A DNA stretch of 64,000 bases from Paracyclopina nana (lineage: Eukaryota; Arthropoda; Copepoda; Cyclopoida; Cyclopettidae): NCBI GenBank assembly GCA_019096065.1, contig JAGUCH010000008.1:4097001-4161000 (forward strand), written 5' to 3'. Position 1 is the stretch's first letter. Every line of letters starts with the position of its first letter. The position numbers and the translations under genes are program-made. Positions 9,444-40,700 of this stretch are shown piece after piece. Under the pieces are notes generated by a model, which did no database searches, was not told where the DNA came from, and saw nothing but the letters and a program-made list of their open reading frames with translations.

Positions 9444-10392
9444 CCTGAGGCCGTAAAGGAGAACACTTTTTTCACGAGTCAAAAGGATGCACCAGCCTCA
9501 GAAAATTGAGACTTTTCCTCTTCGTCATGATACTTCGATTGTAGTAGTAACTGCAATTGGAAGTTTTGCTGGGATGATCACGTATTCGAGGTATATTATT
9601 GTAAGCTGCCACAGATGGCAAAAAGTGCCAAAAATGCAAGCCAGCCAAGAAATTCCTTCAGACGTGGCCGTGACAATGATGTTGAGTATTATGAAACAGA
9701 TGACATTTTCTAGCTTCTTTCTAAGCTACAGCTAAACTTTTTGCAGTGGAAAGCTTACTTTTACAAAAGCTCCTACGTAAAGAAAATATTTCCCAGCAAA
9801 AGTGTGGTCACCTACCGTGCTGCTGTATATATGCAATTAAATTGTGTCTTCTTCGTTCTCGCATTTTGCGATCTCTTCATCAAATTCACTACCACACATA
9901 CGAGCACACTTACACACTACAATTCATCAAGATCTTGACGAAAATTACATTTTGTTGACAACAATGGAGGCTGCTCCTCCGGCGGCCTCGAAATTGAAGT
10001 AGCAGCCTCCATATTGGCCTCAATTTTCCACAACTTCTACATGATTATTATTGGAATAGTGTCTAACTTTGCTCCACTTACATGTGAGGACTACAAATAA
10101 CACCTATTCAACAGCAGCAGCCTCCGAGGCTGCCGAGGCCGCGTGCATGAGAAATATGTGTCTGCATTTCGAGCATGCAACGTGTTTCCCCCGCAAAAAA
10201 GTTCAAGTTACATTTTTATCATTACAGAGCTAATTACAACCTAGTTGGCTTTCACAAACGCCTGAATAATTTTTTAGTTTTTACAAGAGTCTTCCCCCAA
10301 CGTGTCCCCGCCTCGTGCTGCTCACATAGGCCTTGCTACAAAACTCACGAGCACGCTGATAGTTCTTTTATTGTTTAAAGAATGTGCATATA
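9444..10392. other. Gene-free stretch
   Basis: No gene is supported. GC-rich words related to GGAGGCTGCT and GGCGGCCTCG near 9960-10010, with AGCAGCCTCC and GAGGCTGCC near 10105-10140, form a loose inverted relation, but not a clean repeat. Confidence 0.35.
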
Positions 10393-10780
10393 CCGTCTGA
10401 CCGTTCAAAATTGGACGGTGCGGGAATCAAAAGTTTGTGTTATGAATTCATGAATTTTGAGGCTTAATGGGTATCGTTGGAAAGCTTGAACCTTTGGGCA
10501 TCTTTTTTGTTTTCTGACAAAATGAAAAATATTATTGAGAATTCCGCGTGACAGCAAAAATAAATGATACATCAATTTTTTCGCGATAATGTTCTGGGTT
10601 ACATTTGTAAAAATGAATTTTCCCGGTTTATTTCTTGTTAAATTGATTTTTTCTACTTATACAAAAAAGATGGGAAAAGGCTCAATCTTTCCAATGATAT
10701 CATTTAAAAGTCCTGTATTTATTGAATATGTGACAAAAAGTAAAGATTCCTGTACCGTCCAATTTTGAACGGTCAGACTG
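10393..10780. mobile_element. MITE, Tc1/mariner-like (TA target), 36-bp TIRs
   Basis: The terminal 36 bases (10393-10428 and 10745-10780) are inverted copies with 33 of 36 matches, beginning CMGTCTGACCGTTCAAAATT. The element is flanked by TA on both sides (10391-10392 and 10781-10782), as expected for Tc1/mariner-type insertion. Inside each TIR, ACCGTTCAAAATTGGACGGT is itself a near-palindrome. At 388 bp it cannot encode a transposase. Confidence 0.85.
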
Positions 10781-13702
10781 TATATGTCCCACAAAATCTG
10801 TCCGGTCCCCTCAATTTCCTCCCATGGGAGCTGCCTTGTTTAAGCTACCTGCCAGATTTAATTGACGCGAAACCTGAGACTTAGGGTCGACAGATACCTG
10901 GGCAAGTCCTCGTTTTCCGGCCTTTTCTTGATTGCAAATGACAATCGCTGGATGCTAAAAATATTTCACTTCATGCAGTACAATTGTTACTTTCCATAAG
11001 CTGACAACAGTCATTCTGGGGCTGTGAAGTCCAGATTAGAAATCTAATACTTGGGTTATTTCAAGGTGAAGCAGAAACATGCTGTAAAATTGCCAAAGCA
11101 AAGAGAGCTAAGGAGGCGCGCGCATGTTTGCATCTCATTTTTTCGAGTGGTTCAAACCTATTTGCATTCAGGTGGAGTTGAACGGCTCAAGTAGTATTTT
11201 GAATGCACTTTCGGAAACGCTTGGACTTGCAGTTTTCAGTACACTATGCTACAGCTGTAGAAATGCTATGCAGGAGAAGAAGATGTTGTTTAGTACATGA
11301 CATAAGTAAGCAGGACAATTTAGAAAGCAGAGCATCATGCACTTCACAAATGGAATATTCCTATGCATATAATCTTTGCAGAGGAACCCTCCTGCAGAGT
11401 TGCTAATGTTTTTCATAAAAATAATCGTTTTACTCCTGACGCATCGAGTCTTGCCTTGTATGAAGAGGTAAACGATGAATTCCCACTCACTCACTCAAAA
11501 AGGCAGCAAGAGTCTTTTTCTGCTGTGAATTAGAAAGCAAGCTATACACACTCTACTCGTAGGAGCTGCTGTTGTTGCTGTTGTGTTGATGATTTTTAAA
11601 ACAAGTGACAAGAATGCAAGCTATGTCGGAAACGGCAGAGTTCGAACTCACGCAACTATGAAAAATCCTCAAAGTCATCTGAAAATCCTAGACAAACATA
11701 ATTGTTTGGCCTTGATGCAAAAATGAACACTGTGCTGACTGTGAAAGATATGGAAATTTGCTGACAAGCCTCCGTTTTTCCTTATACGTAGTATAATTGA
11801 GTACAAAAAACGAGTTTGTAAGGTTGTAAGTATATGCCCTAGTGGGGCTTCATCTACGTCCTCATTAATCATATAATGGCTTGTATGTAAATAATAGGTT
11901 TTTCAAATCTTATCTAGAAAGCCAAAGACTCTCCCATGATTAAGTATGGCATGCACCTCATCATGGTAGCATATAGTATCGCAGCCGAAGGGACGTTCCT
12001 CATCTATAGGCATGCACATATGTTTTGGGTTCATTATTTTCAAGGGCTGTAGCCCTTTTTGGCTTGAACGATACGATGATGGGGTGAAAAGTGGCCTTGA
12101 GCCCAGCTGAATTCTTGAGAGTGTTGATGACTTTCTTGAGCAGATAATTTAAAAAAACACTGGAAAACGGCGGCCAATGCAGGAGCATTGCAAGAATGTT
12201 AAACGGACAGAAGATATGGGCCATTAGTATGGGAAAATTGATTTATATACACTTGCAGATGAGCAGGACCCTTCGAAGATTCATGAAGCGTCCAAACTGG
12301 TAGCGCGCGCGTAACTGGATGAGTAATGAGGAAAACACGATGCGCTACTTCATACACACAATACCCTCCCAAAATTACACACTTGCTTCGGATGAGCAGT
12401 TTCCCCAATAAAATAGCTACAAAGTTATAATTGTCGTTGCGTAGAAGTGAAAGGCGTCCTGATTTATTCCATTAGGTGTGAAATTGATCCTATCATGCCT
12501 GACTACACCAAAATCTGACTCAATGTCGTGCAAAATCGAATTTTTACGCAAACTCTGCGGAGACGAGCACTACTACTCTTATGCATGCATGCAAGTCTTT
12601 GATTTTCTTGTCAGTCAACTCAAAAAGTACTGAGGTAGGCATCATGCTAGATTGCCTTTTGAAGTTGAGCGAGAAGTAGGAAAAATTCTCCTTGGCTTCT
12701 ACAACGAGAAGAAATGTCCTTTTATCTGTACGAAATGTAGTAGCTAGTTTGTCCAGGTCCCAAAAATGTAAAAGTGAAAATGATAAGAACATCTGCATTG
12801 GACCACCGTGCACACCCTCGTAATAGGAAGTGTAGAGAGAGAAGTATATATGAGATTTTCAATTAGGAACTGCTCAGAAAGTGTGACCCCATTCTGAAAA
12901 AAGTTTGACCAGTCAGTCTCCAGATCTGTTGCATTCAGGGGCCATTGTGAGTCAGCATCAATTTGGTGAAGTTTTGTAAGACCAGCTCTATTCATTCTAC
13001 TTTTGCGTTGAGATTGACCCAGATGTTCAAGAAGTCCGCCACCACGAAAGGATGATACTTTCATGGTGCGGTGCATTTTCCTTACCAAAATGACCACCAT
13101 ACTAGCAATAGAGAGAGAGCTCGAGTGCATTGAATAAAGGGCCCTTTTCTCCTCGGAGGGTTTTCAAAAATGTATGGAAGCATAAAAAAGTTCAATATGA
13201 TTTATTATTGGTTCGGATCCATAGTCTAGCTGAAGTATAGTATAGCATGAACGAATATATTTGTATAGCAGTTTATTATGGGGGGCAGCAAAAACCATAC
13301 AATCAAACCAAAAGAGAGCAATAAGCATATTGAAAAATGGGGAAAAATAAAAGGTGCAGTAATGTAGACTTTTAGGTAGAAAAATGATGATCATGGAGTA
13401 GTATCACAGGTCTGCATCAATAAAGTCTCATTTTCGACTTTATGCTCATATTATAGTAACGTTTAGCTATTTTTTTCTTGGGAAATTGGATGTGATTTTT
13501 AAAACATAGTAGTAGCAGTATACTTTTTCTTTCTTCAACTAAAGACTGTTTCTCAGATCTATACATACATCATGGTATATGTTACAATAGTAGTAGCAAT
13601 TAGAATGTAATATTGCACTGATTCTGCGCGGATGATGCGACTAGATTTTGACCCTCATCATGCACACATTATTCACACTGGGTAATTGTCACTTAATCGT
13701 AT
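10781..13702. other. Gene-free stretch downstream of the beat-family gene
   Basis: No gene is supported. Minus-strand ORFs near 12.5-13.1 kb (89 and 128 codons) lack domain pattern, codon order or splice partners and look like chance. The 3' UTR of the beat-family gene should begin just below 13703. Confidence 0.4.
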
Positions 13703-16700
13703 TCACCATAGCCACTTTTGGAGTCCGTAGAATAGGAGAGATATCAGGATGGCTGCTTCCGTGGCTGAGCACATCAAATTGGCTGAGCTGGTACCATTTA
13801 AAATCGAGTTGGCCAAAGAGTTGTCACCCCCAACAATGTGACTGGTGGCAGCTGCAAGAATCAGTTGAAGAACGACTGTTTTTTCATTAGAAAGCCCATC
13901 TAGTCTAAAGTTGTGTGCACTATTTAGTTTCATGCAAGGCCACTGTGTATTATAATTTTTGGCTGAGTCATAATGCAGCTCAACTTAAGAAGGCATTATG
14001 ATAAACTACAACTGCTGGTAGATGTAATCAAGCGAAAAATTGCATGCAAGCAACCAACATGAGTTTAATATGCTACAAGAGCAGCAATCTTTCAAATGCT
14101 GCCATTCAACTTCCAAAATGGCACTTAGCAAGTGTCTATGCAATAATTTACATTGCTGCTATGCTATGTTGTTATGGCGTTTGCATACAATATGAAGCAT
14201 TCTGCAGCTGCTCAAAGGCTTTAGAAAGCCACTGTCTCACTTTTATGAGCTTGATGTGAAGAAAAAAATCGGGAAAATACCTGAAGTCCTGCCCCTGGAT
14301 TCGGAGACTGGAGCAGTGTGTGCGTTAAATCCGGACCCCTGGACTGACTCCTCGTTCGACTTCCAATACACAGTGGAAATTGTGGCTGTGCATTTGAGCT
14401 TGAGGTCACCATGCAAAAAGTGCTTGTGTCTCACCTAAAAAAGTGAAAGCCCATTAACTTTTTTGGCTCCACTTTGGAGTGTGGCCAGTTGGTCTGATTA
14501 CTTTGAAAGTGAGGCCAAGCCTCGAGGTCAGAAGGCTGGTTCTGAGGTTAGCCTCGTCGGGGTAGCTCCTCAGGTAGACGGGGTCAGCCTTTTCGCCATT
14601 GATGTACCACGACAGTTTTGCAGCTGGCAAGCTGTTTCGCGAGACGCAGGACACGTTGACGTTATCGCCTATGTTGTAACGAGGTTGGCCTCCACGAATT
14701 TCGGGGCCGTCGTCGGGTAAATCTGAAATGATAAAAAAGATTAAAGGATCACTGAAAGTCACGAGCTGTCTCCTGATGTTCAAGGCCAGGTCATCAGTCT
14801 CGCAATTTTCTTACTCTAAAAGAGTCGCGCAACCTCGCACAATATGCACTAAAATCGATTCCCCAACTTTTGTCCCAGGATTACCCAGTGGGAGCAACAT
14901 TGTTTGTGCTATCAGACTTTTGAAGCAGATTCTGCTGCAGCAGCTATGGGCACAGAGAGATTTATGCCCAGAAAGTATGTGCTGAAGATTCTTTCCTTAC
15001 CGACAACGTATAATATGCCATCAGTGGAAGCCGTTTGGAACATTGGAGCGTCTCCAGACACTTCACATCTGTAGTGGCCTGTTGTGCTGAAATCAACGTC
15101 ATCCAACACAATTTCCCGTTCTGTTGATAATCGAGGCTGAAAAGATGACAGGAGAATAATCTTGGAGCCACCCTAAGATATGGGGCTATTTTAGGGAGAA
15201 AGCTACTTTTCGTAAAGAAGTAAAGTATTAGTAGGCCTTTTGTTGGAAATGGCAGCCATAAAACATGGCGTTTCATTGAGCAAATCATTTGAAGTTGTAA
15301 CATCAGCCTTTCACGAAGAAGGCGCGTTCTTTTGCAGGTTTTTGGAAAGCTTTCAGCTGTATCTTACATCTGATCTGATTGCAGTATTTGCAGCAAAATA
15401 GAAGTATGTACATGGAAAAGGCCCAGCAGAAGTTCCCATTTTTGTCGTCGTCATCATCAGAGGGTCATGATCATATTTCAAGCAGCCAAGGCTAAAAGCT
15501 TACATTAACTCTGACTCCTTCATGATGATTAAAGATGGTGACTTTGGGGTTATCTGACGGGATGTATCTGTAGAACTCCTTTTGGTTGAAATACCACTTG
15601 ACACTGTATAGGTTGTCTCCCTCCAGGTCGTAGTTACATTTTAAGACAGCCTGATGGCCTTTCAAGGCATGCGGAGGAATGATGGAATCCGGAAGCAGCT
15701 TGACACAAACACAACCTGGAAATTGAAAAGAGAGAAAAAATGGCATTAAGAAAGCACTCAACACAATCTACAGAAGCTACAGCCTCTAAAAGGCCATCAT
15801 GGCGTGTACGTTAATTCTCAGCACGTTTTCCTAACAAGGAGGATGACAAAAAAGAAGAAGACACTTTTTAGAGATCAAAAAGAGATAGAGGAGCCTACTT
15901 GAGGCCTCTTTTGAGCTAACCCTGCCCTGGTGGTTTGACCTAAATCCCCCACACCAAATTGGACCTCAGAGGGTCAGTCTGTCAAAAGTGGCATGATGGC
16001 CTTTCTAGTTGAACAAAAAGTAACCTCGAATCTCGTAATTGCCATGAATAATTGTTCAGCCTCATTGGATTGACATAAGATGAAATATTCAGCCTGAAAC
16101 AACCGGGCTTGGCCTTGGTTTGGCCTTTAAGGCCGAGGAAAGGCACGCTGGGGGGAAAATGCGAAACTGAAATGGCTAAATGAGGTAGCGTGGAATCCAT
16201 TGAAAAACCCAGGGAGGAATCCCATTTTTCAGGCGGGAAGAAACGCGACAGTGGAGCATTTTCCCACAGTGTACCAGCTATGGTATGCTACATACAGCTG
16301 GTAAAAAGGGGCCTTTTCCACTACCAACAAAGGTCTTTGCCATTAGCTACCCGGACCTCTTTTGGCCAACCTTCTTCGCATTGTGCCAACTATTCGTCCT
16401 TTTCATTACTTCGACGTCTTCTTCTCTTAGATCGCCAGGCCTGATCGAAAAGGGAGCTCGATGCGATAGAAAACAATCGATGCCTTATACCTACTTTCCG
16501 GTCCTACAGCATATGTACTACTACATGTTCGTGGATTTGAAAAGGAGACATATACCTATTTCAGTTTTTTTGGACCTCCATATACAGGAAGTCCCAAGGG
16601 AAACTTACTTCTCATTTGTCTAGCATGTTTTCTCTCTCGACTGCTTTCCATAACAAAAGGTAATCATTCTGATGAGGAGGAGAGTGAGAAAGCAAGCTTT

Positions 16701-19700
16701 TGAAAGGCAGCTTGTATCTTTTACAGCGAGATAGAGATGATATGTAGCAGTGGTTTGTGCGGTGGTGGCCATTTATTCAAAAGCAGCGAGTCCACTGTAT
16801 AAGCGGCGTTATCATCTGTGAAAGCGACTTCCTTGGCAAAGAGTTCTTATTCTACCTTTCATCTCGATTCTTGTATATGCACAAGGATATGTGTATTATG
16901 AGATCTCAACTTTGTGCGGAGCATTCATCATCATTTTCTCCTTAGCTCTTTTGGCTAAGATAACAATGACGAAAAAATGCAGATTAGAAAGCAGTTCAAG
17001 GATCTGTGTGTGCGGTCAGACAAGCAGAAACACAAGAAGAGTCAATAGTCACTTTTGTTACTGATGGCTTCCTTGATGGCAAACTACCAAGTGTATAAGC
17101 ACAATATCATGATTTTTTGGGCAAATTCTTGGGGCAAAAATAGTATTGCTGTGCACTGAAAATTCTTTAAATTCAGCTCTTCCCCCTTGACTGCTCGCGA
17201 ATGCATTTTTCAAGTGCATTTCCAGAATTATTTGGCTGCTGCTATAGAAACCAATATCAGGTTGAAGACCTACGGCTATAATTGGTCTTCTGCCACCGGT
17301 AAAATGGAGTGTTATGCATGTCATGGATCATTAGACGGGATTTGCACGCAATTGTCCTAGCAGCTAGCAATAAAAAGAGCAAGAAAAGGTGCTTTCCTGC
17401 TGTTTAATTGCACAAACAGCATGCGAAAAAAGTCACTTTCCTCATGACAGCAACACCATCTTGGCCTAATTAATAGTGATTGACACAGCACAGACAAGTT
17501 GATATATCATCATAATTCCTGCGGACATTTGCAATCAATTTGCAGCATATGAATGTAGTGAGAGAGATGTGCAATTGTGTTCTGCATTGCATCAAAATGT
17601 AGAACATTCATTTCTTTTCCCCTAGCTAGCTGCTTTCATGCTGTACTTTTTTCAGTGATGAGGACATTGAATAAAGTATAAAGGAAAAGCTGCGAAGAGG
17701 ATGGATGATCAATCATCTCAAGGGCTTGACTTGATAGTCTTGCTACTTTTTTTCACGGATCGAGACGCGCGACAAAAAAAGTAAGTGCCAATAGAGTAAC
17801 ACACAAGGCAGCACCAAGTTAACCAAAAATGAGAATTGTGACTGGAGGAAAATGTGAAATTGTGCAAGGCTTCAAGGCTGCCGTTTGAGGAGAAAGCCAC
17901 AGATTTATGCTTTTTACACTTCTTTTGATGATATCAAGTTGTTGCCCTCCCATTGAGCAAAGAAATTATCCAAGCTGTGATCATCACCATTATCTTGATA
18001 TTTTTGGGGTATTTTTTGCTTCAGATCTCGGCACGCTCGCGATTTTGACCTTCTCAGCAGCAGCAGCAGCAGCTCTTCTCTGCTTCTCTGGCCTGTTCCA
18101 ATTAAGAAAGTTTTTCCCCTTTCCAAATCTTTATTTGGCACCAATCAAATGAGAGTCAAACTGTGCCAAAGTTTTCGAAGCTCCTCCTTTTGATTTTGGT
18201 CTTTTTCTTGGCAAAATTCTGCCTGTCCGGCCAAATGGGAGCGCGCGCGCCTCTGTGTAAATGGGGGTGAAAGTAACGCCATTTCAGGGGAGCACAAAAA
18301 ATTGTGGGAGCAGCGAAATCTGCTAAAAGCCCATTCCTGCTGCAATAAGGCAAAGGGCCTTGATCATCAAAGTCTCAGACGGAGGCCTTCAAGCTTGATC
18401 CACTTCTGATCTTTGGGAAATTGAGTGAAAAGACGGAAAAGGAGAATCTTGAGCAATGCAGATAAAATCAACTAGACGGTTGAGAATTGGTGATTTACTG
18501 CTCAGATAAAATATACCATAGGGATGACTCACTATGCACTCACTAATACCAAAACTAAAGTAAGAGAGGATTTCTCAATAATGGTTGCTTCGCCTTATCA
18601 ACACCACATAACTATACATAGTAGCATAGGAAATGAACAAAAGCTATCCTGTACTGCAATAAAGAAAAACCAGATATGGATGGAATGAGCTTTTTGCCTA
18701 TGCAAAAGTGCGAGTGTTTGCTATTTATTTCATGGCTGAGACAAGATGATCTATAGTATAAGGTGAGATCTATGCTCAGCTTTACTATAACACGTCATCG
18801 GACTATACTATGGTAGGGTGCAGGACGAAATTTCTATTTAAATCTGTGGAATTTTCTTTGTGTTACAATATATGGATTCAAAGTTATCCCCAAAAACCCA
18901 TAAAAACAGCCAGAATTTATTTTATGATGAGATAAAGTTGGGAAAAGGCTGGTAACACTTTCAGGCATGTGATGCAAGTGAGCGTGAGCGCTCACTCTCA
19001 CACTGGTTTATCCAGTTCATGAATTTGAATTTCGCGCTTTTTTTATGTACTAGCGCTACTGGAGCGCTCCCTATCGGAGGACGAAATAACTATTATAGTT
19101 TCGTGATTCAAAAGTACAATTGTTCCGTCTGGATTGCTCGATAGAGATCCCCCTGGGCTGAGAATGATGTGAGCAGAAAATACAGAAGAGGGCTCCAGCA
19201 TTGAACGCAGAATAAAAGAATGACTCAGCTCTCAAGATGACGACAAAACTGAGTGAGTGACTGAGTGAGTGAGGGGTAGATTTGATGGGAAAACCCTCGA
19301 GCCAGTATTGTCACATACCTTGCCGTCATGAGCAAGTTTTGGCTTCTCAGAGCTATCATCATCTCATAGGACAAGTTAATCTTTTGCGCAAACACACGCG
19401 TGTAAAAAATGGCTCATTACTAGGGGATTTTTCATTCCGCAAAGGCCTAGGTACGCCCACATCACCATTTATTTCAATCAAGGCTGTAGTAGACTCTTTC
19501 CAAGGTGGTTTTCTCTTTGCTTAATAAAAAAGGCAATTTGGGCCTTGTTTCTTTACACTTAAAAATAATGGCACCGTTTCAGCCCTTTTTTTTAATGGGC
19601 AAGTAACTCAGGCAAAATTGCACTACAACAAGAACACACTGAGGAGCAACAGCACAAGCTTGGCTTGAGATTATTCTTTTTATTCACAGCAGCTCTATTC

Positions 19701-25700: not shown

Positions 25701-28700
25701 CTACTGCAGTAGAACATAAAAGAGGACAATATGGTGCCAAATCGTTATCATTTTGAGCCATTACTGCCATAAAGCAGCAGTAGCAGTATGTGGTCGATTT
25801 TTTTTTGTGGGGGAAGCAAAATCAGCTTTTTCTATTGCTTCCCAAATTGGCAAAAGATGATGATGATGACGAGGAGGAGAATAGACAAATTTGGAGATGT
25901 GCCATGCAAATGAACGCAACTGCTCTTTCTACTATACTATATAAAAGTTTAGAATAGCTCTTCTTCTTCTTGCGAAAGCAAGTTGCCTCAAAGTCCCATG
26001 GGACGGTTTTTTCCTAACTGTAAATGGAGGAAAACCATTTGGCCAAATCTGCCAAGCGAGAAAAATGAGAGTCTTCCCCTCAGACCCATTATTGTTAAAC
26101 CCGTATGCTTTTGAAATTTGTAGCATAGAATACAACTCGAGTGGTATTGTGCATTTAATTCAACTTTCTACATGGCTATCTAGTCTTTTTGCCACCAATT
26201 TGGACTGGTACGAGATAATCAAGAGCTTTCTCCTCAGGTCAAAACTAAATGCACTTAGCAAAAGGGCAGCCAATCGACAAATCATGACAACCAAGGGCCC
26301 TTTCGCACAAAAACAATTTTTTCTACTACTTGGAGAGAGGAAATGTTTGGTGATGAGCAACGGAGAAGCGCGTTGTAATTTGGTTTTGCTGACGCGAAGA
26401 TAAAACTGTCAAAAACATTGGTGAGCTTCGAGGTCACATTCTGGGAACAGAGAGCACGCCAACCTTCGCATATAACCTAGTAGTGTTGTCTGCGAAAAAA
26501 ATGGCGTAGGCTCAAATGACCTCGAAGAACTGTATTTTTCTTTCTCTCCTTTGGATCTCTTTATCAGAGTCCAGACCTTTGATCATGCTACTGCTGTCTT
26601 CGTTTTTTGTCCTGCTCTGCCTTTTTTCTTGTTTCCTTGGGCAATAAAAAATATGAAATTCAATTTCCCCTCTCCCAGTTGGAACACGAGCAAGTAGTTG
26701 TGACCCATGGACTCCCAAAGGACTGGATTTTTTTCTCCGACAATCCAGAAAAAGGTAGGTTTTATGGGCCCTCCAGCCAGACACAAAATTATTAAGTCCT
26801 TTGAGCAGATGGATGAAAGAGCCTTCATCTCCTTGCCCTGCTGGACCGAAAAATGAAGTGACTTCATTTTTTTGATGGCCAAAGGCTTGGTCTCAAGAAA
26901 TCACTTAATTTTTCATTATCTCGGGAGCCCGACGACGACTTCTCTCGACTTGATGAAAAAAGAAAGCCTTTGGCTGGCTGAAAAAGACACTTAGGCCTTT
27001 TTTCTGTGTCTTTTAACTGAAACCTGCTCTTGAAATTAGAAAGCACAAGAGGGCTCAGATCCTTGACCATCAATTGAATCGTGGCCGACCATTCGTTTTC
27101 CAAGGTACTACAAGTGTTCTAGTAGCATCTAGGGGGAAAAATGTTTTCCTAGCTGCTGCTGCTTCCAGGGATTGTCAGACAAGGAGAAAAGCACTTGTGG
27201 AGAATTTACACACCCCATTTGGGGTCCAACTTAGTACATGTCAAGTCAGCTCCCCTGGGAGCATCTCACGAATCTCAGTTTTGACCACAAAACTTGTTAG
27301 CATTATCATGGCTGTAAAGCTGCACTAAAAATCAGGTTTATGCCCTCGCAAAACATCCACGAGCCACCGCCAATTCTTACCTAAAAGAAAGGGAGAGGAA
27401 AAGAAAGATTTTTAGTAAAGAGAAGCTTTTTGTGCCAGATGAGGCGGAATTTTCGTATGGACTTTCCGCTGATCTGGAAAGCCATGGCAACTTTCGATAC
27501 GCATGCAGACTGGGGCAAACCCGTTTTCTTTACTCCCTTGATGTCTGCTTTACATAACTTTTTCATAAAGAAAATTTCATGTTTAGCTTCCTTGAAGAAT
27601 GTGAAGAATGTTGTACTGTACTTTTTAATAGTCTGATTTTCACCCCTCGGATTGGTTGTAGTAGTCCTTTCTTGTGAAAAAACGCGGTACGTGTGGCATC
27701 AAAGCTTTCATCCCTCTTGATCCAAATATGTTTCTACATATTATGAAAGGAACAACTTTACTCTTGAAAACTTTTCTCTTCCCTGCTGAATGCACAACAA
27801 CAGATGATGTAGTAGAAAAGGGTTGTTGATGATGATGTTCTTCTCCACCTAAAACTCCATGTCATTGCTCTTGCTAGTGTTTTCCGAGCTAAAGAAATTG
27901 CAAATCCTTTTTGCTAGTGAAGCAAATCAAGAAAGATGGTCATGAGTTGCTTGCCAAAAGACACCGACTAAAAAGTTGGTACGACAGGCATGCACTTTTC
28001 CTTTGCAGTCTCGACGGACCTGTTCAAAATGATTAAAACCAGGGATTGGCACCCCACCCCACCCCACCTATCTGGCTTTCCAAAGACTTATACTCCTACA
28101 TTGTAGGAATTGGGTCTGATCCACAGACAAAAATGTGGCTGTTGTTTTTCTGAGCTTTCTCCTAAAATCGCACAACAAAGTATTGAGACGCTGAACGATC
28201 CTGCTATCTACCAAAGACTTGGACCCGAGGAAATGATTCGTAATGTCAAAGCGAAACGGGTGGAATTAGCAATGCTAAACCTAACCTAACTCTTGTTCCT
28301 CCAGATGATGAACAAGGGGCCCTGGATGCAATGCCTGGATGGAAGACAAGGTGAGTCAAAAAGCAATGCTTTATGACTTGAAGAAGCAGCCTCTAATTCC
28401 TTTGGAATCAAGCTGCCAATGAGCTATGCTCAAGCTGGAGACAATGGACATGTAAATAGTTAAAGAGTTAATAAAGTACAAAAAGATGAAAAATTGGAGA
28501 CACAAGCTCTATTCTTGGATTCGTTTACAACAATGCTCGAAAAAAACGATGAGTTGGCAGTCCCAAACAGCTGCGTCTTGCCGAGTGCTCGCGGAGAGCC
28601 GGTGCGGTAGCGCAGGCTCGCACAGAGTCCCCCCTTGGAGCCCGTTGGCCTTCATGGCCACTTGGCGGCGAAGGCCACGAAACGGGTCTCCAACACATAA

Positions 28701-31700
28701 CGGGTGATCCCATCGATTTTGGTGACACGATTGTAAGGGAGGAGGCTCACGCAGTTTCCTTCTTTCACCAGCCTCAGACGGAAACCTTCATGAAGTCTGA
28801 AACCTCTGATGCTCAGCAGACTACAAAGGGAGGCTTCCTCGACGAGCTGGAGCCACGGCTTCTTGTAGGTCAGCTCATGATGGGTAGGCTCATGCCCCAG
28901 CTCTTGGCAGAGCTCGCATCTCCTCAGGAGCATCTCGCACACCATTACCGTATGTTCGGTGGAGCCGCATTGCGGATAGATGCACTTCACGGGCCCTGCA
29001 TTGCAGGAGCCCTTGTCATGGTCGAAAGAGCCGCATCGCGTGCAAAAGTGGGGCGCATTGCGCCCCCCGGCAAAAACGACCTCCACAATGTCGTTCCAGG
29101 TGAGGCGGCCTGGCGCTTTGCGCACTACTGCGAGAAAATCTCGGGCCAGATCCTTGTCCACCAAATGAAGGTCCAGCGCATAGCGCCTGGGCCCTTTGCG
29201 GAAATGGGTGCGCGTGGCGAGAATCATGTGCACGGAGGAGGCTTTGTTGTCCCTAAGGAACATCCATTCCGCGAAAAGGCCGTCCTCGCAATGCGAGGAC
29301 GTAGTGGGAGGCTCGGTCTTGTTGAATGGCCTCATCTCCGCGTCGGTCTTCCCCAGCTTCCCCGTGTTGTGATTGTCTCGAATGCGATCCAAAAAGAAGT
29401 GGCAGTGGCGCACAACATCAGTTTTCGGCCCAAAACCATGGCGCAGAAGCCCGCGCACTACCAGTGCCAGAATTGAGGCTGCAGTGACGGCGTGGTTCAT
29501 CCACACGTACATCTGCATTTTAGCCGTCCACTTCTTGTACGACACGCTAAAATCATCGACGTCACGATCGTACTCGAACGCAATTCGTGGAGGCTGGAGT
29601 GCAGGTTTGCTCCTCTTCTTCGTGGTGACCATGACGGGCACAAGATCACTGCCAAGACGATCTGCCAAATAAGTCAGGTTGCTCTTCATGTTGGCGGGCT
29701 TCTCCTCGGGCTGAGGGAAAAGGGCAATGCCCACCAAGTTGGTGTCGCACTTGGTGCGGATGTCGATGCCAATATCCTTATATCTTTTCTCCTCGCTGAT
29801 GTTGAAACCGCCCACTCGTACAGCAGGAGCCTCCAATAGTTCCACAATCCTTTGTGGCACTTTTGCCCCTTTGAACGAGTGCTGGTTGCCCCCGTAGTTG
29901 CACTGAATGATCAAGAGGGTCCCCGTGAGCGTGCCTACTCCAAGGAGGGTGAAACAGCCTTCATTGGGTTTACCGTCGGCGTTGGCCATCCCGGTCCTGG
30001 CGAGAGCAGGCACCGTCCAGCTATACATGTGGCTGGTCATGGCATTCCAGGCGGCCACGTCGGCGAAAAAGGCATATTTTTCTTCTAGCTCCTGCTCTAT
30101 CAAGGGCCATTGATCATCGTTTTCCAGAACAACCACATTGCGCTTGCCCCCCTTGGGCCTGCAGTCCATGGGGCCTGCCCTGAGCTTGACGGCCTCAATG
30201 GCCTCTTCGAGGCTGAGGACTACGTGACATTGTTCGCCCATCTCTCCTCGAACCTGGGCGTCGTGGGGTCCTTCTTGCACTCGGTGGATTGCACAGTTGT
30301 CTGCAGGACAATCTGCATTGCAGGCCGGATCGCGAAGCATTGCTTCGACTCTGGGGCAGTTGTTGGGCGGGGGGTCACTTGCTTGACCAGGTGGAGGTGG
30401 CCGCAATGCGGGGGGGCTCATGCCCGATGACCGCAACGCGGCTATGAGGAGATCGGGATCTTCAAACGGATCAGCCAGCGTGGTGATGGAGGGGTTAAGG
30501 CTGAAATGGTGCCAGAATCTTCCCAGCCATTCCGGAGTATCTCCCTCTTCACCTTGTGCTCCAATGGAGAGTACTCTTCTCAAGCACTCGTCCTTGTTGG
30601 GGGTTATTGCCCCGAACATGCCCCTGGATATCATGGTGGCGAAGCTTTTTCTTTTGAGCCATACCTGTCGGCAGAGCTCCAACATTGTTCCCTGGAGCGG
30701 AGGCCGTCGAAGAGGCTGCACTGGTGGGTTGACATACAGGCAGTTGAACTCATATTTGTCATAAATCTGAGCCAATTTTGGGTGACAAACTGCCATAATG
30801 TCGATCGGAGGGACGCCGCCCAAGAGTCCCGCAATGCGGGTGTGGTCAGCCTTTGAGGATGAGGCTGGATCCGCCGCTCTGACTGCCTCGCTGCGAAGCT
30901 CCCCTTGATCCCTGGGGCCGTAGGACATCGAGTGGCCCAGAATGGCGACTTTTGGGTCGCAGTAAAGCGTCAGTATGGCGTCTCCATCCATGCTTTCCAG
31001 CTCATCTTGAAAAAAGACGCGATCGGCGAACAGACAGGCCTTGAGGACTCGTTCATGGTCTGTGAGCATTGCTCTTCTGTCCTCAAATGTGGAGGGCAGC
31101 CCGAGTCCTGTAAATAGCAAGCTTAGATTATTGGGTCTGATTATACCGAATTCGTCTTTCAAAATTTCGTTGCCACGATCCCTGAATGAGAAAACCTCTC
31201 CAACTATGGACTCCTGCTCGATTTTCTTGTGCTTTTCGGTTTTCCGCTTGGTTTCCCTCGACGATTCACCGAGACGGTCAAACACCGAGGCTCTCGTCGA
31301 TGGCCTTTCTTCCCTACGTGGAGGCAGGCGAGGAATTTTGAAATTGGAAAGATTGGACCTCGTCAAAGACGTCCTTGATGATCTGGTGTCTTCGGATCTT
31401 GATCTTGACTCAGTGGAGGACCTCTTTCTATCCGACTTTGATCTGGCGGAAGACGAGCTCCGTGAGGATGGCTCGCTTCTGCTCCCGTTGGTTTTTCTTT
31501 TTGTGGTCTTCGGCATTTCACCTGGTTGGTCTTCTTCCTCCTCTCGTCCCCCCATTGAGGTGGAGGACCGGTCTTCGTCATCCAGGATCCTCGCATCCAC
31601 GTGAAGTTCTATCTGATCATCGGTCGCTTCGGAGTCAAGGATGCTCGACGACACACTCTCGACTTCCATCCCTCTCGCCGGTGATGAAACGGACAGGTCG

Positions 31701-34700
31701 GAAGGAGCGTACTTGGGAGAGCTCGCCAGCAGATCCGTGTCCATAGGTTCTTCATTCAGGGGGGGCGTAGCAATGCTACTATTACCATTACCTGCGGGGT
31801 TTGTAGCAATGCTACTTGGTGTAGATTGGCCAATGTTGTCGAACGTTTGGAGAACCTCCCGCAATGCGGGAGAAGATTCCTCCTGGATGGCCACGGGGAT
31901 CGCCTCGGTGGGTGATGGAGCCTTCACTGGGACGAGCGTCACTTCGTCTAAATTTTTCTCACCTCCGGTTTCCTCGGTATTTTCTTCCATGATGCACTGA
32001 AAAACTTCTCTCGCGAGGAAATAAATGGCGGAAGCGGCAATGAAAAAGGTAAATAAACAAACCGGTTGAGAGTTGCGGTCGACTGCGCGCATCTTACGCA
32101 ATGCGTGTCAACTCAACCTCGACAATGAGATATATATAAGAGTTAATAAGTCGATTGGGTGCGCAATGCGCTGACTAGATATGAATAACAGATACTTGGA
32201 GTGAATTTAAATCTGTCCCAAGGTTACTGTCCTGTTGGACAGAATGGGATATTCGGCGTTGTTATTGTGAGAGTTGTTCCATGGGGCCGTTCTGTAAGAG
32301 TTGATAGAGTTGACGTACCTTCCAAGGTCGCTCACATTTTCTTCGTTTGTTATGTTATAATCTTGCTCTTGGTCGTCATCAAGCTTTGGATGTATCAGAA
32401 GCTCGTCTGAGTCGCGAAAAACATCGAGTGGTATCAGAAATTGCGTTGATTTTTCATAGAAAACTGGTTGCACGTTGCCGGGCGGAACCATTTTCACTAT
32501 GGCTCTGCGGCATTGCCCATCCTGGTCACGAAAGGCAGTGTGGATGATCCCTAGTGGCCAGCAGTATCTTTTGTGAAACTGAGGTTTTTCCAAAACAGCC
32601 ACAACGTCCCCCACCTTGAGCAGATCTCGATGATGCCTCCAGATTGGCATGTTTCGAAGCTGCTCAACAAGCTCCATGGACCAATAGTCCCATAGATTCT
32701 GCAATGCAGTTTCCAGGAGCTGAAATTTGGCTTCAAGAGTTCTAAGTTGATCTGGATCGATTACTGGGAGAATTTCTCCAGGAGGACCTCTCGTTAAGAA
32801 GTGGTTTGGCGTTAAAAATTGGTTTTCCAGCATTCCTATGGGCCGGCCGTTGACAAATCCTTCAGCTTTTATGACTATGTAGCGGAAATCTTCGATGTTA
32901 GTTGTGCCTTGTGAGAATTCGCGATATAGAGCTCTTTTGAAGAGTTTTATTGCTGCCTCCCCAAGTCCGTTGAAGTTTGGCGAAAGTGGTGGTGAGAGTG
33001 TCCAATTGGCAATGCCAATTTCTCCACCATATTGTCTCAGTTTATCCCAATCTAAAACCTGCAACTTTCTTAACATTTCATTGTACCTTGGGTTTGTTCT
33101 GATGGATTCTCTGCACGCGATGAAATTCGACCCGTTGTCGCTCCTCATGGTGTGTGGGCATCCTCGTCTTGCAACAAATATTTCCATCGCTCTCATTAGA
33201 GAATCCGCCGTCATGTCGTACAATTCCTCACAATGAATTGCTTTTGAGTGTAAGCAGATGAACACTACGACATACATATTGTACTCTGATCTGTTGAATT
33301 GGGTGGTGAAAGGTCCACACATGTCAAAGCTTGTGTATTTGAAAGGCATGAATTCACTGAGTGGGACTGCGTGTGGTGGTAGTTGGCCCATGTGTGGTGG
33401 TAGAGCGTTCAAGCGGTGCCTGGCGCATTTTGCACAATGTGCAAGAATTTCGGTCATGATGCGTTTTCCTCCTGGAATGATGTATTGTAACTGGGCTTCA
33501 TTTAGGTACCTTAACCGGCCAAGACCGTGGCCTAATTTTTGATGAATGTCTTCGAGGACAAGTTTCCTTCCTTTTCCTGGGATGATTAATTGGCGACGGC
33601 CTATCCATTGTACTGGGGAGTGTTCGAGCCTTCCCTTGGATCTGAGTTCTCCATGGGGATGTATGACTGGGTCTAGCGTTGCTAGACGGCTGCCTCTGGG
33701 CCAATGGCCTTTTTCGTAGAAGTAGTCGAGATCTTGTCCGAATTCATTTTGTTGTAGCCAGACAGCAATGCTGTTTTCCGCTTTTTTGAATTCTTCTGAT
33801 GAGATCTCTCCAGAAGGCATGGCATTTGATCCGTACTTGATGTACTGAAAGAAACGTGCACAATAGCATAAAGCTCTTATCATAGTACCCCACCGATTGA
33901 ACCTCTCAAGCTGAACGTGGCAGGGAGAATTTCTCATGTAGTGCCACGCAATGCGTGTATCTACATCTGGCCTTAGATGCTTAGGTACAAAGTATCCACC
34001 CAATCTTTCAAAGTAGGCGATGAGAGTGACTTTCTTTATCAGCTTTTTAACCTTCCTGGTGTTGAGATTGTTTCTTTCGTAGAGTTGAAGTGCTGCGCGT
34101 TCATCATCACTGATGTTCGGAGTCCACTTTGGAAATTTTTCATCAGGGCCTCTCAAGAATCTTGGTCCGTGAATCCATAGGTCTGAGTCAGCAAGCTCAG
34201 CAATGCTGCAGCCTCTACTGACTAAGTCAGCCGGGTTCATCCTTCCTGGGACGTGATGCCATTGAAAATTCATAGTTTTCTCAAAAATTTGCGTCACTCT
34301 TCTAGCTATGAACTTTTTATATTTTCTTGCAGGCTTCGAAATCCATGTGAGCGCACATTGAGAATCCGTCCAAAGATGGACATTATCAACTTGTTCAAGA
34401 GCTCTCAAAACATCTTCGCATATTTCCGAACCGATGACGCATCCTTCCAATTCCATTTCTGGCATGGATCTCGTTTCAGACAGCGACGCAATTTTCATTC
34501 TGCTAGCTAATAATGTACAATCATAGGTGCCTTCTTCGTATTCCATTCTGAGATAAACTGCCGCTCCTTTGGCTGACTCGCTTGCATCGGTGAAGACGTG
34601 TAGAGAGATTGTTTTGGCTGGTCGGGAGCGCATTGCGCGGGGCAGTCTGAAGATCTCCACTCGGGCTACCTGCTCGAGGTAGTCCCCCCATTCCTTGGTG

Positions 34701-37700
34701 ATAAGCTCTATCTCTTCAGAGTCTATCATGTCGAAAACAGTGTCCCAATCTACGTTGTAGACGTGCTTCAAAGCCATGACTCGTTGGATTAGAAGACGAC
34801 CTTTGAGCACCAGAGGGTTAATGAGACCTAATGGGTCAAAAAGTCGTGGGACAAATTGCACCATAAGTCGAAGGGTTAGTGGGGCATCCTTCACAGCTTC
34901 CGTTGAGGGTGGTTGAAATAGAATTTGATCTCCCTCGCAATCCACGTACATACCTAGTGCTTTGGTAATTTCCGCAGATTCAGAGTTTACTGCAAACCCA
35001 GGGAGTTTGTGGGAATCAGGGATGTCCTGAAGAACTGATGGAGCATTGCTCCCCCACTTTCGAAATGGCATGCCCCCCAACTCGCCCACCTCGAGAATTT
35101 GCTTCACTGTTTCCCGACCAACAATATTGTCCTCAACCGAGGCGAAAACATCATCTACATAGAGGCTGGAATCCAGCACCTTGTAGGCCAGAGGATGGCT
35201 TTCTTGGTATTGTGAGATGTGGTGTTTGACGGCGAAGCTTGCCATGCATGGGGCGCTTACCGTACCGAATACCACTGAGTTAGCCTCATAATGTACTCCC
35301 GCCCAAATAAAGCGATGATATTTCCTAGAATCTTCATCCAGAGAAAATCTTAAAAACATCTTAGAAATGTCCGTGAACAGTATTACTGGTTTTTCTCGCG
35401 CTGCGATTAGGATTTCAAAGACGTCACGCTGCAATTTGGGGCCTGGAAGGAGAGCATCATTTAGGCTTTTACCGTTATGTTGTCTAGAACCGTCGAAGAC
35501 GACCCTGACTGGCATCGATGGTTTGTCTCGACGTTCAACTAGAAGCCAATCTAGGTAATATCCAATATCCAGGTCGTCAAAACGAGGATCGAGGATCCTA
35601 ACAAAACCCGCATCCAGCCAGTCCTTCAGTTCTTGGCATGCTTTTTCGTAAGTTGGAAGGTCGAAAAGTTTCAGTCTTCTCTCTACAGCTGAAGTAGCCT
35701 TCATGACAGCTTGTCGATTGCAGATGAAGTTTGGCTCATTGTCTCTCCACATTGGTCTCATCTGATACCTTCGACTTTCCAGCTGGGTGATGGTGGAGGT
35801 GAGAATGTCGAGGGCTTTCTTTTCATTCACGCTGAGCATTGCTAGCGGTGGAGGGCCTAATGGGTCGTCGTATTCCCACAAGGCTTTAAGCAGCTCTGAA
35901 GGAGGAGGAATGTCCTTTCCTTCGCAGAGCTGACATGGCAATGCCGGTGGTCCTGATTCTTCATTTGTTGGTAGAGTGATTGTACCTAGCATGACACCAA
36001 AGTGGGAAGCTCCTTTGACCTATTCTGGGGTGTAATAAGTAATTACCCTGCCCAATGGGCAGTCGTACACATATGGTTCACCTTCCTTTTTATGAATTAC
36101 AGTGTCAGGCATGATCAGGTTGAAATAGTCTATACCGAGGAGAAGATCTGGACATGGTGGTGTGGCGTAGGTGGGCAGTTCCAGGTCTTTCAAGAAGGCA
36201 AATTTCTTTTTGAGCTTGCTTAGTGGGGGTACATTTACTGAGGACGGTAGATCAGCGATGGTATGCACAGAAAGATCATGCACTGGACCTCCTTTCACAG
36301 CTTTGATCTGCAATGTGACTGCTTCGCTGGCCACCGTCACTGTCGTGGCTATCATTTTCAGAATTTGATCGTCCGAAACTCCTTCCAGCTTGAGCTTCTC
36401 CGAAAGATTTTTTGATACCAAGGACAGTTGAGCGCCGGTGTCTAAGAAGGCGTTGACTTTTATGAAGTGGTCGGGTTGCTTGGGATTAGCCACTAACACC
36501 GGAACCACACAAAAGCTAAGCAATTCTCTGCTTCGATTTTGTTTCGGCATTGCCGTAGCCACTTCATTGGCGACCTTTGAGGACGATAGGCAAGGTCGCT
36601 TCAGTTCAGTCAAATTCGCAATGCGAAGCTCGTTAGTTGGAATTGGAAGATCAATTTTATTTATGAAAACCTCATCTTTATTTTCACCCTCCAAGTCTGA
36701 CTCTTCTAAGTCCAGGCTTCCATCTCCCACTTCGCTGGTGGAGATGGATGTGAAATGAGACAGAGAGGTGGAGCCGCTCACTTCAGCTTTTAGTGGATCG
36801 ACGTCTTCTGTGTCTACGTTGAGCCTTCGAAGTACCTCTGCCAGATGAGCAACTGCCTTGGACATGTCTTGATCTGAGGTCGTTTTGTTGGCCTCCACAT
36901 CCTTTTTAGGCTGCGACTTCTCTTTGTCCACATGGTCCCAAGCTCCATGCAGCCTGGTGTGATGACTGTATGGGGAAAATTAGCCTCGTATAAGGAAAAG
37001 GGGTCGCTGAGGTCGCGAGATGGAGCATTGCTCACTATTTCGGGTGGCACGTCTCTCAGCATGTTCCTTAAGGTTTTGATCATGTCATCGCCTTGTAGGA
37101 TGAGGTTGACGTCTCGTTGTTCAGGTTTTCCTCCTTGGGCTTCAAAATTCTGTACAGCTTCCTCCAAAGTGCCCAAAGCGCGCGCATAATTTCTATAATT
37201 TCCCGCTATCTCGCACGGGGGCGTGCCGATGGAAATTTCTTGCGCCATGGCTCCGTGCACTCCTCTGAAAATGCACGCAGCGGCACCATAAGCCATCGCC
37301 GCCTTCGTCAGTGCTGCGGTGTCCGCGTTGGATCCACTGACAGCTGGGTTTCTCGAGCTCGAAGGTCCGATGCGCAGATCGCGCTGCGATCTCCCGTCAA
37401 CATCTGGAGGCTCAACCTCTCCACGGGTCGGTGCGCCCCTGCCGGCATTGCCGGTCGAGTCCTGCTGCTTACCACTCTGCGCGGAGGCGTCGTGATGGGA
37501 TGTGGTCGCTCCAGTTAGCGTGCCGGGTCTCACCTGTAACTGTTGGTTGAGCCAGTCAGCTGTTTCCCTCACGGAGACCTGCTGTGCGGTGAGATAATAA
37601 TAATCTCCGTCTTGCATCACGACATGGCATCCCCCACTCTGTTCATCCATCTCTACCCTGGCCAACTGGGTGTCTCTCTCATCTTGATTGGGTTGAACGG

Positions 37701-40700
37701 CCGAACTTGTTTGAGGTTGAAGCAGGTTTGACTGAGGAGCATTGCTCGAGGTTCCCGCGTGAGAGCTGGGAAAAGTCTTCATGATTTGGTTGGCAGACGC
37801 CAATAGCGTTTGACAAGCCTGATAGTTCTTCACATAGCTGTCCCTCAAAGATTTTGAAGGCTGAACATTGGCTTGCGCGACAGACAGCTCATAAAGACCG
37901 TAAATCCTTTCATATTCTTTGATATAGTACCTGAGATGCTGTAGCACTTCATGTGCGGTGGATTTCGACACGTTACCTTGATCGAAGTCAGCTCGATGCT
38001 TGTTGGTGAAAGGTTGCGTGATTTGGAACAGATTTTGAAGAGATTCCGTGTGTGCGTAGGCTTCGGTTTCGGCCTTCTTCATCTCCTGTAACTGCTTTGC
38101 TGACTTCTTCCCCGCATTGGGGCGACGTTTAGTGCCCCCCGGAACGTACTCGCCTTCGGTGCGGTTTCCTCCGGATCCACGCTTACTGGAGGCTCTTTTC
38201 TTTGCGCCTGCAGGTATGCCATCACCCCTAGGTTTCATTCCCTGGTTGGATCTAGAGCCGTAAGAGGTCTGCGAGGCAGCGTCGTCTTGGGACGAAGGAG
38301 GTGGACCAGGTCGTGGAGGTCGCATGGTGGGAACAAATCTTCCTGAATCGTCACGGAGTGGTAGTTCTTTTTGAACCACCGTGGTTGAAGTAGCATCTAT
38401 TGAGGTTCCGCTAGCGGCATTGCCGAGCGCTGATGCTCCCCCTCCCTGTCCTGGCATTGGAGTGGAGGTACTCAAATTGAACGGAGGGGGCGGCAGCTGC
38501 TGGGCATTGCCCGTTCCTGTTGCAGACGTGGTGGTGGTTGGGGTGACTCCAGGTATAACATGGCGTCTATTTGGATCTGGCATCGGAGTGGGTGGAAATG
38601 ATGATGCATTCGGGTCGAAAGGTCCAGAGGTACCGATGGGAGTCCTAGCGGTCATTTTACTTTGACTAGACTGAATTTCGATACCTTTACAAGAAATTGG
38701 AGCGGCTTCAGAGGTGGGAAGCGAGGGCTCCTCTGGTGAGCGTATGAGATCAACTATGTCATGGGCCAGGCCAGGATCCGGAATGGAATCGGTGACTTCG
38801 TGAAGGAGAGCGAGCCTAGCTTCGGCTTGCCTCTTGGCAGATTTCCTAGCAAACTTGCTAGCCTGATTCAGGTCTCGAAGAGCTTGGTGATAAGGAGAAA
38901 TTTCTAGGTTTACTCTTCCTGAACCACCGTAAGGACTTTGGCCTTGAACTCTTCGACTTCTCCTGGTGCCCGCGTCCTCGAGCTGATCAGTTTTGGCCTT
39001 GAGTTTGCCCCATTTGTTCCTTGGCATGTGAGACTCTTGTGGATCTAGGAAGGGTCGGGAGCCCCACGTTGGGCGCCAACTGAACGATCCTGCTATCTAC
39101 CAAAGACTTGGACCCGAGGAAATGATTCGTAATGTCAAAGCGAAACGGGTGGAATTAGCAATGCTAAACCTAACCTAGCTCTTGTTCCTCCAGATGATGA
39201 ACAAGGGGCCCTGGATGCAATGCCTGGATGGAAGACAAGGTGAGTCAAAAAGCAATGCTTTATGACTTGAAGAAGCAGCCTCTAATTCCTTTGGAATCAA
39301 GCTGCCAATGAGCTATGCTCAAGCTGGAGACAATGGACATGTAAATAGTTAAAGAGTTAATAAAGTACAAAAAGATGAAAAATTGGAGACACAAGTTCTA
39401 TTCTTGGATTCGTTTACAACAATGCTCGAAAAAAACGATGAGTTGGCAGTCCGAAACAGCTGCGTCTTGCCGAGTGCTCGCGGAGAGCCGGTGCGGTAGC
39501 GCAGGCTCGCACAACGCATATAAACTTGCTATTTTGGTAATCATGGTATTTTCCAAGTTAGTGACTCAAGTAGAGCTCTGATCGATTTATGACGTTGAAG
39601 GTAGTTTTAATGTCGATTAATACCAAGTACCAGTAAGGAAAATTGAACATAGTAATGTACAGAGACATGCTAATGATGATGTTTGTAATCAGAGCACGTG
39701 TCAGATTAGTAATCGTATACCATATATAGTAGTAATAGTACAGTGGAGGCAAAATGCAGAATTAATCTGGGAAAATTTCCGCCAATGCGAAAAGATCAAT
39801 ATCAGTACAACTTGGCCTTTTCTCCTCCTGATGGTTGGTGGAGAAAAGTTTCGGTTTACTGGCGATGATCTTCGTCGTTGCTGGTTGCTGTTGTTCGGTC
39901 ATAACTCATCTGACTTTTGTGATCCCAAAAATGAGGAGGGCGGTAGGGTTGCAACTCGAACAGAACTCGCTTACGAAGTGCCAAAAATCAGACACTTGCA
40001 AGCTACAAATTGTGAAAAAAACTCAATTTAGAAGTGCACTCGTTAGTGCAATTTTCCCTTTAGATTCGAAAAAATAGGGAAAGTTGGTTAGACTACAGAC
40101 ACTGTAGTATATGTTGCAATGTGCTCGCGGTATTAATATTTCCCCCCTTTTTTGTTGTTTTTTGCCTCATGGTATTTACAAGGAGATCCTGTTTTAGTAA
40201 TGCTTTTGTATGGGGAAAAGCTATTAGTATGTAAAAGCCGTAAAAGGGGATCACATGTTGAGAAGAGAGAGAGACGAAACTTTTGCCTTATCATATTTCA
40301 CCAGGATCGGGGGTGATGTCTAATTTAATAATAGCTTAGGAAAAAAGGGGTTGAAAGGGGATGATAAGAGGAAGAAGATTTTAAAGGGCTTTCTTTAATG
40401 TGGTCCACGCATTAATTGGGCCAATAGTGGGGTAAAAGTGGGCAAAGGGCTGCTGGATAATTAGAAATCTTGGCCATTTCCAATTTGCACGCGACGGCGA
40501 GAGAGGAATGCACTTTTTTACAGCAAGCAAAATGAGCCAGGGGTGAAACCACGACGTCATGATGATGGAAAAAAGCCATCTCCTGTAGCTAGTCGCAAAA
40601 AAGCTCCCTGTCATTGTTTTGCAAAGCAAAGAAGACCATATTTGAGTTGTCATTTGCATGACTAATGCAGTCTTCTTTTTTGCACTGGGTCAGGATTCTG

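Follow-up and report, generated by a model that had tools for sequence, protein, structure and literature searches.

The 64,000-nucleotide stretch of the Paracyclopina nana genome analyzed here, referred to below as the window, contains a BEL/Pao retrotransposon with long terminal repeats (LTRs), which extends from position 28192 to 39513 and is coded on the minus strand. Its two LTRs are 99% identical, and a 4-bp target-site duplication marks its ends. Together with the Pao-type domains of the pol open reading frame (ORF), these features place the element among BEL/Pao; Peptidase_A17 scored 114 bits, and rve and Integrase_H2C2 fell slightly below the curated cut-off. Besides pol, the element carries an ORF1 in the position of gag, a protease ORF and a large third ORF, ORF3 (Table 1). 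All of them are interspersed with copies of the heptamer GCAWTGC, the subject of this analysis.

An earlier note on this DNA had reported that 38 copies of GCAWTGC, designated 'cores' below, saturate the element. This count was confirmed: 47 cores were found in the window, 38 of them inside the element, and 37 of the 38 listed positions were correct, the remaining one (30404) actually starting at 30403. We call 'arm' the number of complementary pairs on either side of the central W, which is 3 for the core itself. As had been claimed, arms measured 4 to 10 for every core except the pair at 28328 and 39217, where the arm was 3. Outside the element, about eight copies without extension had been reported; there were nine in 52.7 kb, of which eight indeed had arm 3 and one, at 17584, had arm 4. 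Among odd palindromes with an arm of at least 5, the core was at the center of 33 of 48 within the element, and of 0 of 90 outside. The excess was specific to this arrangement: GCA and TGC were separated by one base 38 times, each of the other spacings in the 0 to 8 range occurred only one to six times, and even palindromes showed no excess in the element over the rest of the window. The cores were dispersed, with a mean spacing of 302 nt (one LTR counted), and 30 of the 38 lay wholly within the four ORFs, which supports the earlier view that the motif is maintained inside coding sequence.

Codon-preserving shuffles (1,000 per ORF) reproduced neither the number of cores nor the length of the arms. 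In gag, 5 cores were present, all 5 with an arm of at least 5 (shuffle maxima 4 and 2, respectively); pol had 10 and 7 (maxima 6 and 2), and ORF3 had 13 and 13 (maxima 6 and 3). The pairs that continue the palindrome outward, or 'flank pairs', were complementary at 34 of 35 sites for pair 1 and at 32 of 35 for pair 2, one LTR being counted once. When the 3' letters were re-dealt among sites, none of 10,000 deals matched the observed value for either pair, a result that is free of any effect of relatedness. We conclude from the shuffles and the permutation that the claim of a real, selected feature with variable complementary arms, beyond chance, holds for this BEL/Pao element. A fold model with RNA parameters (60 nt on either side) was applied to the 31 window sites where both flanks are paired, and the stem probability exceeded 0.5 at 22 of them. 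Across the genome, the pair pattern GCAWTGCN{5,35}GCAWTGC was found 201 times, compared to 69 for a reversed control.

The motif is shared by close relatives of the element. Nine related elements from the same 92-Mb genome, 67 to 79% identical in DNA to the window element over the matched parts, carried 34 to 49 cores per stretch of 15 to 16 kb. This amounts to 382 cores, 358 of them with an arm of at least 4, a count that keeps LTR pairs and near-identical copies and includes stretches that extend into neighbors. Neither of the two results named in the earlier note as refuting the feature, namely shuffles that reproduce it or other copies that lack it, was therefore obtained. In pol, sites were gained and lost by substitution between elements, and the flank pairs were mostly complementary where the core was present. 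Alignment of the ten elements, a check proposed in the earlier note, revealed compensatory flank changes at several pol sites. Over 250 sites of this group (clade A), which are distinct but not all independent, flank pairs 1 to 5 were Watson-Crick in 236, 218, 103, 92 and 76 cases, with all four pair types occurring. As pairing at flanks 1 and 2 is far above that at flanks 3 to 5, the unit is 11 nt long and can be written NN GC AWT GC N'N'. Conservation followed the same limit: in 163 comparisons of homologous sites, flank 1 was identical in 154, flank 2 in 128 and flanks 3 to 8 in 56 to 84. Compensatory double changes numbered 17 at flank 2 and 0 at flank 1.

A palindrome may be a duplex binding site or a stem closed by a loop. 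The two were compared on AWT-centered sites with two paired flanks (477 distinct sites, of which 177 had the full core, in 148,823 bases of the ten elements), by counting changes at symmetrical positions around the central base. At ±3, the complementary double changes numbered 11, 7 and 4, compared to 12 single changes summed over six types; at ±2, they numbered 12, 3 and 2, compared to 16 singles, again over six types. At ±1, the situation was reversed, with 59 singles over 12 types and 2 complementary doubles over 6 types. Since doubles are on average commoner per type at ±3 and ±2, and singles at ±1, the pattern is that of a stem plus an unpaired loop. Positions ±2 to ±5 have the behavior expected of base pairs, and positions -1, 0 and +1 that of an unpaired, recognized loop. 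If a homodimer bound the duplex, changes confined to one half-site should dominate; on average the reverse was found at ±3 and ±2, and only ±1 fits. A homodimer site was rejected on this ground, and the double-stranded DNA feature favored in the earlier note, with a dimeric binding site as one example, is not the best reading.

A search with the reverse transcriptase (RT) gave 95 matched stretches, which were sorted by identity into groups A, A', B, C and D. Eight pieces of the more distant lineages contained 0 to 3 cores each, none with an arm of at least 5. Distant pieces taken later were similar, with the exception of L037, which had 7 cores, one of them with arm 5. Other palindromic words were found in their place: GCGNCGC in B, GCCWGGC in A', CTTAAG in part of C, and CG..CG in another part. 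An unbiased scan for over-represented hairpin loops (stem of at least 3 or 4, loop of 3 to 7) returned AWT in A, CAT/CAG in A', GAC/GTC in B, CTAC/GTAG, TTAA, TTAT and GTGC/GNNC in parts of C, and GCTA in one D element. One A' element, L040, has a GAAA tetraloop of the GNRA type where the other A' elements have CAU/CAG triloops, which is a loop switch inside a group with 63 to 66% RT identity to the window element. Because the loops of L031, L034 and L040 are not palindromic, a scan limited to palindromes missed the first two (reached by 73 and 44 of 100 shuffles) and barely detected the third (3 of 100); the loop scan found all three.

Overall, in 28 of 33 BEL pieces, which are not 33 independent tests since clade members share sites, a loop word exceeded all 200 dinucleotide shuffles, only just so in L027 and L049. 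In three others (L030, L033 and L039) it was reached by a single shuffle of 200. Of two 4-kb Gypsy pieces, L050 showed no excess (its loop count was reached by 101 of 200 shuffles), and L051, checked without shuffles, lacked any hairpin loop word with four occurrences. Among eight host chunks of the window, none beat all shuffles, their counts being reached by 1, 19, 50, 50, 70, 71, 73 and 77 of 200. The first of these values, which is near the BEL signal, comes from GCAGC hairpin loops in the chunk 12001-18000. Another observation concerns L038, a D-lineage element with a weak CAG loop signal, which also contains the word GAGTTGCTC in four copies when both strands are counted.

Strand placement can be read only where a loop differs from its own reverse complement, which excludes AWT, GNC and UUAA. 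The even orientation of the internal copies in the window element (16:16), earlier taken as an argument against an RNA loop, is uninformative for this reason. In five elements whose loop differs in this way, the hairpins favor the coding strand, with 86 there compared to 9 on the other strand (L028, 28:3; L048, 22:5; L040, 12:0; L046, 9:1; L034, 15:0); the coding-strand count of each was unmatched in 5,000 permutations. In addition, GTGC loops in four C elements were found 15 times on the coding strand and 4 times on the other. The placement in the five elements points to RNA and is a further argument against a double-stranded DNA feature. Three other loop types use both strands.

The best explanation at hand, whose chances we put at about even, is that the units are dispersed, lineage-specific RNA stem-loops by which an element protein packages its own RNA. 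Each unit would be a small stem-loop in the sense RNA of the element. Its stem, about 4 bp long, could take any letters that maintain pairing, and the letters of its short loop would be constant inside a lineage but vary from one lineage to another (AWU in the window element). There would be about one unit per 300 nt along the whole RNA, within coding sequence. The loops would be read by an element-encoded protein, either Gag or the CCHC protein of ORF3, and each BEL/Pao lineage would in this way select its own RNA for binding and packaging, although many lineages reside together. We propose packaging because dispersed packaging signals are characterized by numerous small stem-loops that combine freely varying stems with a single loop word (PMC6281560). 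Somewhat more tentatively, we suggest that the loop words, private to each co-resident lineage, repeated tens of times and switched at divergence, may form a self/non-self code that co-evolves with an element-encoded reader.

Several observations weigh against this explanation. At ±2, two of the three complementary double types (3 and 2) are no more frequent than the commoner singles (5 and 4). The antisense hairpins of the window element fold nearly as well as the sense ones (19 of 31 sites). Some lineages use both strands: L031 loops were found 9 and 6 times, and L038 CAG loops 8 and 6 times, although the latter signal may be a coding effect, all odd loop lengths being in excess there. L036 and L037, of clade C, showed no excess of any exact loop word over 200 dinucleotide shuffles; their word CGNATTG occurs in both orientations, 11 times on the coding strand and 27 on the other. 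Its first flank is complementary at 32 of 38 sites, and its second flank, read on the motif-bearing strand, is Watson-Crick at 20, G-T at 11 and A-C at 0. If the stem forms in coding-strand RNA, G-T should be tolerated there above A-C. On that strand, summed over the loop sets (sites with at least three of four pairs), G-T was found 15 times and A-C 20 times. By set, G-T to A-C was 5:1 in L040, 1:0 in L046, 2:2 in L034, 2:4 for the C35 type, 0:3 for L031 CTAC and 5:10 in A'. Outside these sets, L041 gave 1:1, and clade A gave 15:15 over four pairs. At flanks 1 and 2, the B group (0:4) and L032 (1:9) lean to the other strand, the second flank pair of L032 being hardly constrained. Moreover, retroviral packaging signals are few and clustered near the 5' end. 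The relevance of dispersed packaging signals has itself been questioned (PMC6475782). The wobble counts and the both-strand lineages stay unexplained.

These last two points keep alive a reading in which the units are DNA mini-hairpins, formed on single-stranded or supercoiled DNA of either strand (the cDNA or the integrated copy) and read by a DNA-binding protein that is specific for their structure and loop. The two orientations of the L036/L037 motif, with its wobble on the motif-bearing strand, those of the L031 loops, and the lack of a G-T excess on the coding strand would all be accommodated. A precedent exists in the promoters of phage N4 virion RNA polymerase, described as a conserved heptamer with a 3-base loop and a variable complementary stem (PMC4496689). 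N4, however, has three early promoters on DNA, whereas the BEL/Pao elements have about 35 units each, oriented by the coding strand in the five clear elements. This bias, and the lack of a known source of supercoiling or single strands across an 11-kb element, lead us to regard DNA mini-hairpins as unlikely, yet as the most serious competitor.

The structural arguments in favor of RNA hairpins would all equally fit sense-RNA stem-loops that serve export, the control of translation or stability, or shielding from host RNA silencing, with a reader from the element or the host. ORF3, common to the lineages, is compatible with such a role. Private loops would nevertheless be better suited to telling self from non-self RNA than to a host pathway that all lineages share, and we find these other roles rather doubtful.

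It is improbable that the units are duplex DNA motifs bound by an element-encoded protein as an anti-silencing or chromatin address, in the manner of VANC of the VANDAL elements, a reading that belongs to the class favored in the earlier note. The likeness lies in short motifs that are private to a lineage, dispersed in many copies within the element and prone to turnover (PMC5735166). VANC motifs are described there as linear duplex words in noncoding tandem repeats. The BEL/Pao units are stem-loops in coding sequence, most of them dispersed within ORFs, whose stems accept any base provided that it is complementary; pairing is constrained at ±2 to ±5, the core itself changes in pairs, ±1 behaves as unpaired, and the hairpins follow the coding strand.

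Mutational bias, whereby template switching or repair perfects quasi-palindromes without function, would account for arms of all four pair types, but is very hard to reconcile with loop letters and closing pairs fixed per lineage, with flanks 1 and 2 so much more conserved than flanks 3 to 8, with the lack of excess even palindromes, and with the absence of the signal from the two Gypsy pieces and the host chunks; the replication or repair bias invoked earlier leaves the loop words unexplained. An integration signal, also suggested in the earlier note, was rejected, as the target-site duplications of the four elements read at both ends (ACGC, TGCC, CAAT and ACAT) and their 30 flanking bases lack GCAWTGC. 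Dimerization by kissing loops was rejected for the lineages whose loops are not self-complementary: the AWT, GNC, UUAA and GNNC sets are self-complementary, but GCUA, GAAA, CAU/CAG and UUAU are not, which makes kissing unlikely. Overall, the earlier interpretation is partly supported.

Table 1. Features of the BEL/Pao element and its hairpin units (window positions; units given as 11 nt)
Feature	Position	Strand	Remarks
3' LTR	28192..28624	-	99% identical to 39081-39513; ends set by 4-bp target duplication ACGC
5' LTR	39081..39513	-	from LTR comparison and target duplication
Target-site duplication ACGC, left	28188..28191	.	from reading of element ends
Target-site duplication ACGC, right	39514..39517	.	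from reading of element ends
ORF1, gag position, 737 amino acids (aa)	36814..39027	-	no Pfam match
Protease ORF, 303 aa (DUF1758, aspartyl protease)	36020..36931	-	ORF list and Pfam
pol ORF, 1261 aa (RVT_1, Peptidase_A17 = Pao, Integrase_H2C2, rve, DUF5641)	32207..35992	-	ORF list and Pfam
ORF3, 1149 aa, candidate RNA-binding protein	28652..32101	-	no Pfam match; CCHC-like knuckles near C terminus
Unit, AWT loop, 3' LTR copy	28267..28277	-	arm 6
Core only, unpaired flanks, 3' LTR copy	28326..28336	-	arm 3
Unit, 3' LTR copy	28361..28371	-	arm 6
Unit in ORF3	28965..28975	-	arm 5
Unit in ORF3	28996..29006	-	arm 6
Unit in ORF3	29053..29063	-	arm 8
Unit in ORF3	29286..29296	-	arm 10
Unit in ORF3	29722..29732	-	arm 5
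Unit in ORF3	30313..30323	-	arm 5
Unit in ORF3	30335..30345	-	arm 7
Unit in ORF3 (core start 30403)	30401..30411	-	arm 5
Unit in ORF3	30829..30839	-	arm 6
Unit in ORF3	31064..31074	-	arm 5
Unit in ORF3	31768..31778	-	arm 6
Unit in ORF3	31804..31814	-	arm 6
Unit in ORF3	31859..31869	-	arm 8
Unit spanning ORF3 start	32096..32106	-	arm 5
Unit between pol and ORF3	32161..32171	-	arm 5
Unit in pol, flank pair 2 unpaired	32508..32518	-	arm 4
Unit in pol, core in 10/10 aligned elements	32699..32709	-	arm 5
Unit in pol	33007..33017	-	arm 8
Unit in pol, core in 9/10 elements, compensatory flank change	33763..33773	-	arm 6
Unit in pol	33946..33956	-	arm 6
Unit in pol	34198..34208	-	arm 5
Unit in pol, core in 9/10 elements	34628..34638	-	arm 5
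Unit in pol, compensatory flank change among elements	35041..35051	-	arm 6
Unit in pol, flank pair 2 unpaired in window element	35834..35844	-	arm 4
Unit in pol, flank pair 2 unpaired in window element	35936..35946	-	arm 4
Unit in protease ORF	36545..36555	-	arm 5
Unit in protease ORF	36616..36626	-	arm 6
Unit in gag	37023..37033	-	arm 5
Unit in gag	37443..37453	-	arm 6
Unit in gag	37737..37747	-	arm 5
Unit in gag	38415..38425	-	arm 5
Unit in gag	38502..38512	-	arm 5
Unit, 5' LTR copy	39156..39166	-	arm 6
Core only, unpaired flanks, 5' LTR copy	39215..39225	-	arm 3
Unit, 5' LTR copy	39250..39260	-	arm 6

Two further observations were made along the way. A 3.6-kb stretch is duplicated about 10 kb apart with 99.9% identity at C1:11.73-11.75 Mb (L013/L014), as if by tandem elements, and the host chunk 6001-12000 of the window contains TGAA.AGTT / TTCA words, 12 and more, which probably belong to a short repeat family.

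The product of ORF3, one of the two candidate readers, has an RS-rich N-terminal part in addition to its C-terminal knuckles. Its residues 440-1149 had no homolog at E ≤ 0.001 in a large protein database, a comparison with solved structures returned only a weak similarity to the LIN-28 zinc knuckles (E 1.7), and no relative was found in viral contigs. In the genome, 71 stretches matched ORF3, a number that includes fragments of a single ORF, and most adjoin BEL/Pao elements, among them A, A', B, and several C and D elements; none is listed beside L032. ORF3 apparently represents an undescribed protein family. Otherwise the element resembles Belpaoviridae in its Pao peptidase, RT and integrase domains and in DUF5641, and differs from them by this third ORF and by the hairpin array.

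Stem-loops of retroelement RNA are known to serve packaging and dimerization, such as psi, DIS (the dimerization initiation site) and the GACG loops of retroviruses. Kissing loops have been described in Ty1 RNA (PMC5454406). The BEL/Pao units resemble these as hairpins of a retroelement RNA, but are not confined to its 5' end. They also resemble the dispersed packaging signals of MS2 and other single-stranded RNA viruses, reported for the hepatitis B virus pregenomic RNA as well and described as many small stem-loops with a common loop motif and variable stems (PMC6281560). As sequence features, both multiple stem-loops along the RNA and a shared loop motif on variable stems were found here. 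Unlike the signals of single-stranded RNA viruses, the BEL/Pao arrays occur in LTR retrotransposons, with a very uniform loop that is private to each co-resident lineage, and their binder is one that we infer. In the main text of a survey of metazoan BEL/Pao elements (PMC3118150), neither palindromes nor hairpins nor stem-loops are mentioned, and no comparable retrotransposon hairpin code appeared among the matches listed when the open-access literature was searched for related wording, which is weak evidence of absence.

How a retroelement protein selects its own RNA among relatives in the same cell is an open question. Dispersed packaging signals are debated because their motif is usually weak, whereas the BEL/Pao signal can be read by eye. 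It lends itself to statistical testing inside a single element, occurs in the same genome in many natural variants with different loops, and leads to predictions of particular protein-RNA pairs. The finding also directs attention to the large third-ORF protein common to these lineages. If the self/non-self code suggested above is real, the hairpins would correspond, at the level of RNA, to the VANC systems, and would constitute a dispersed packaging code covering the whole genome of an LTR retrotransposon.

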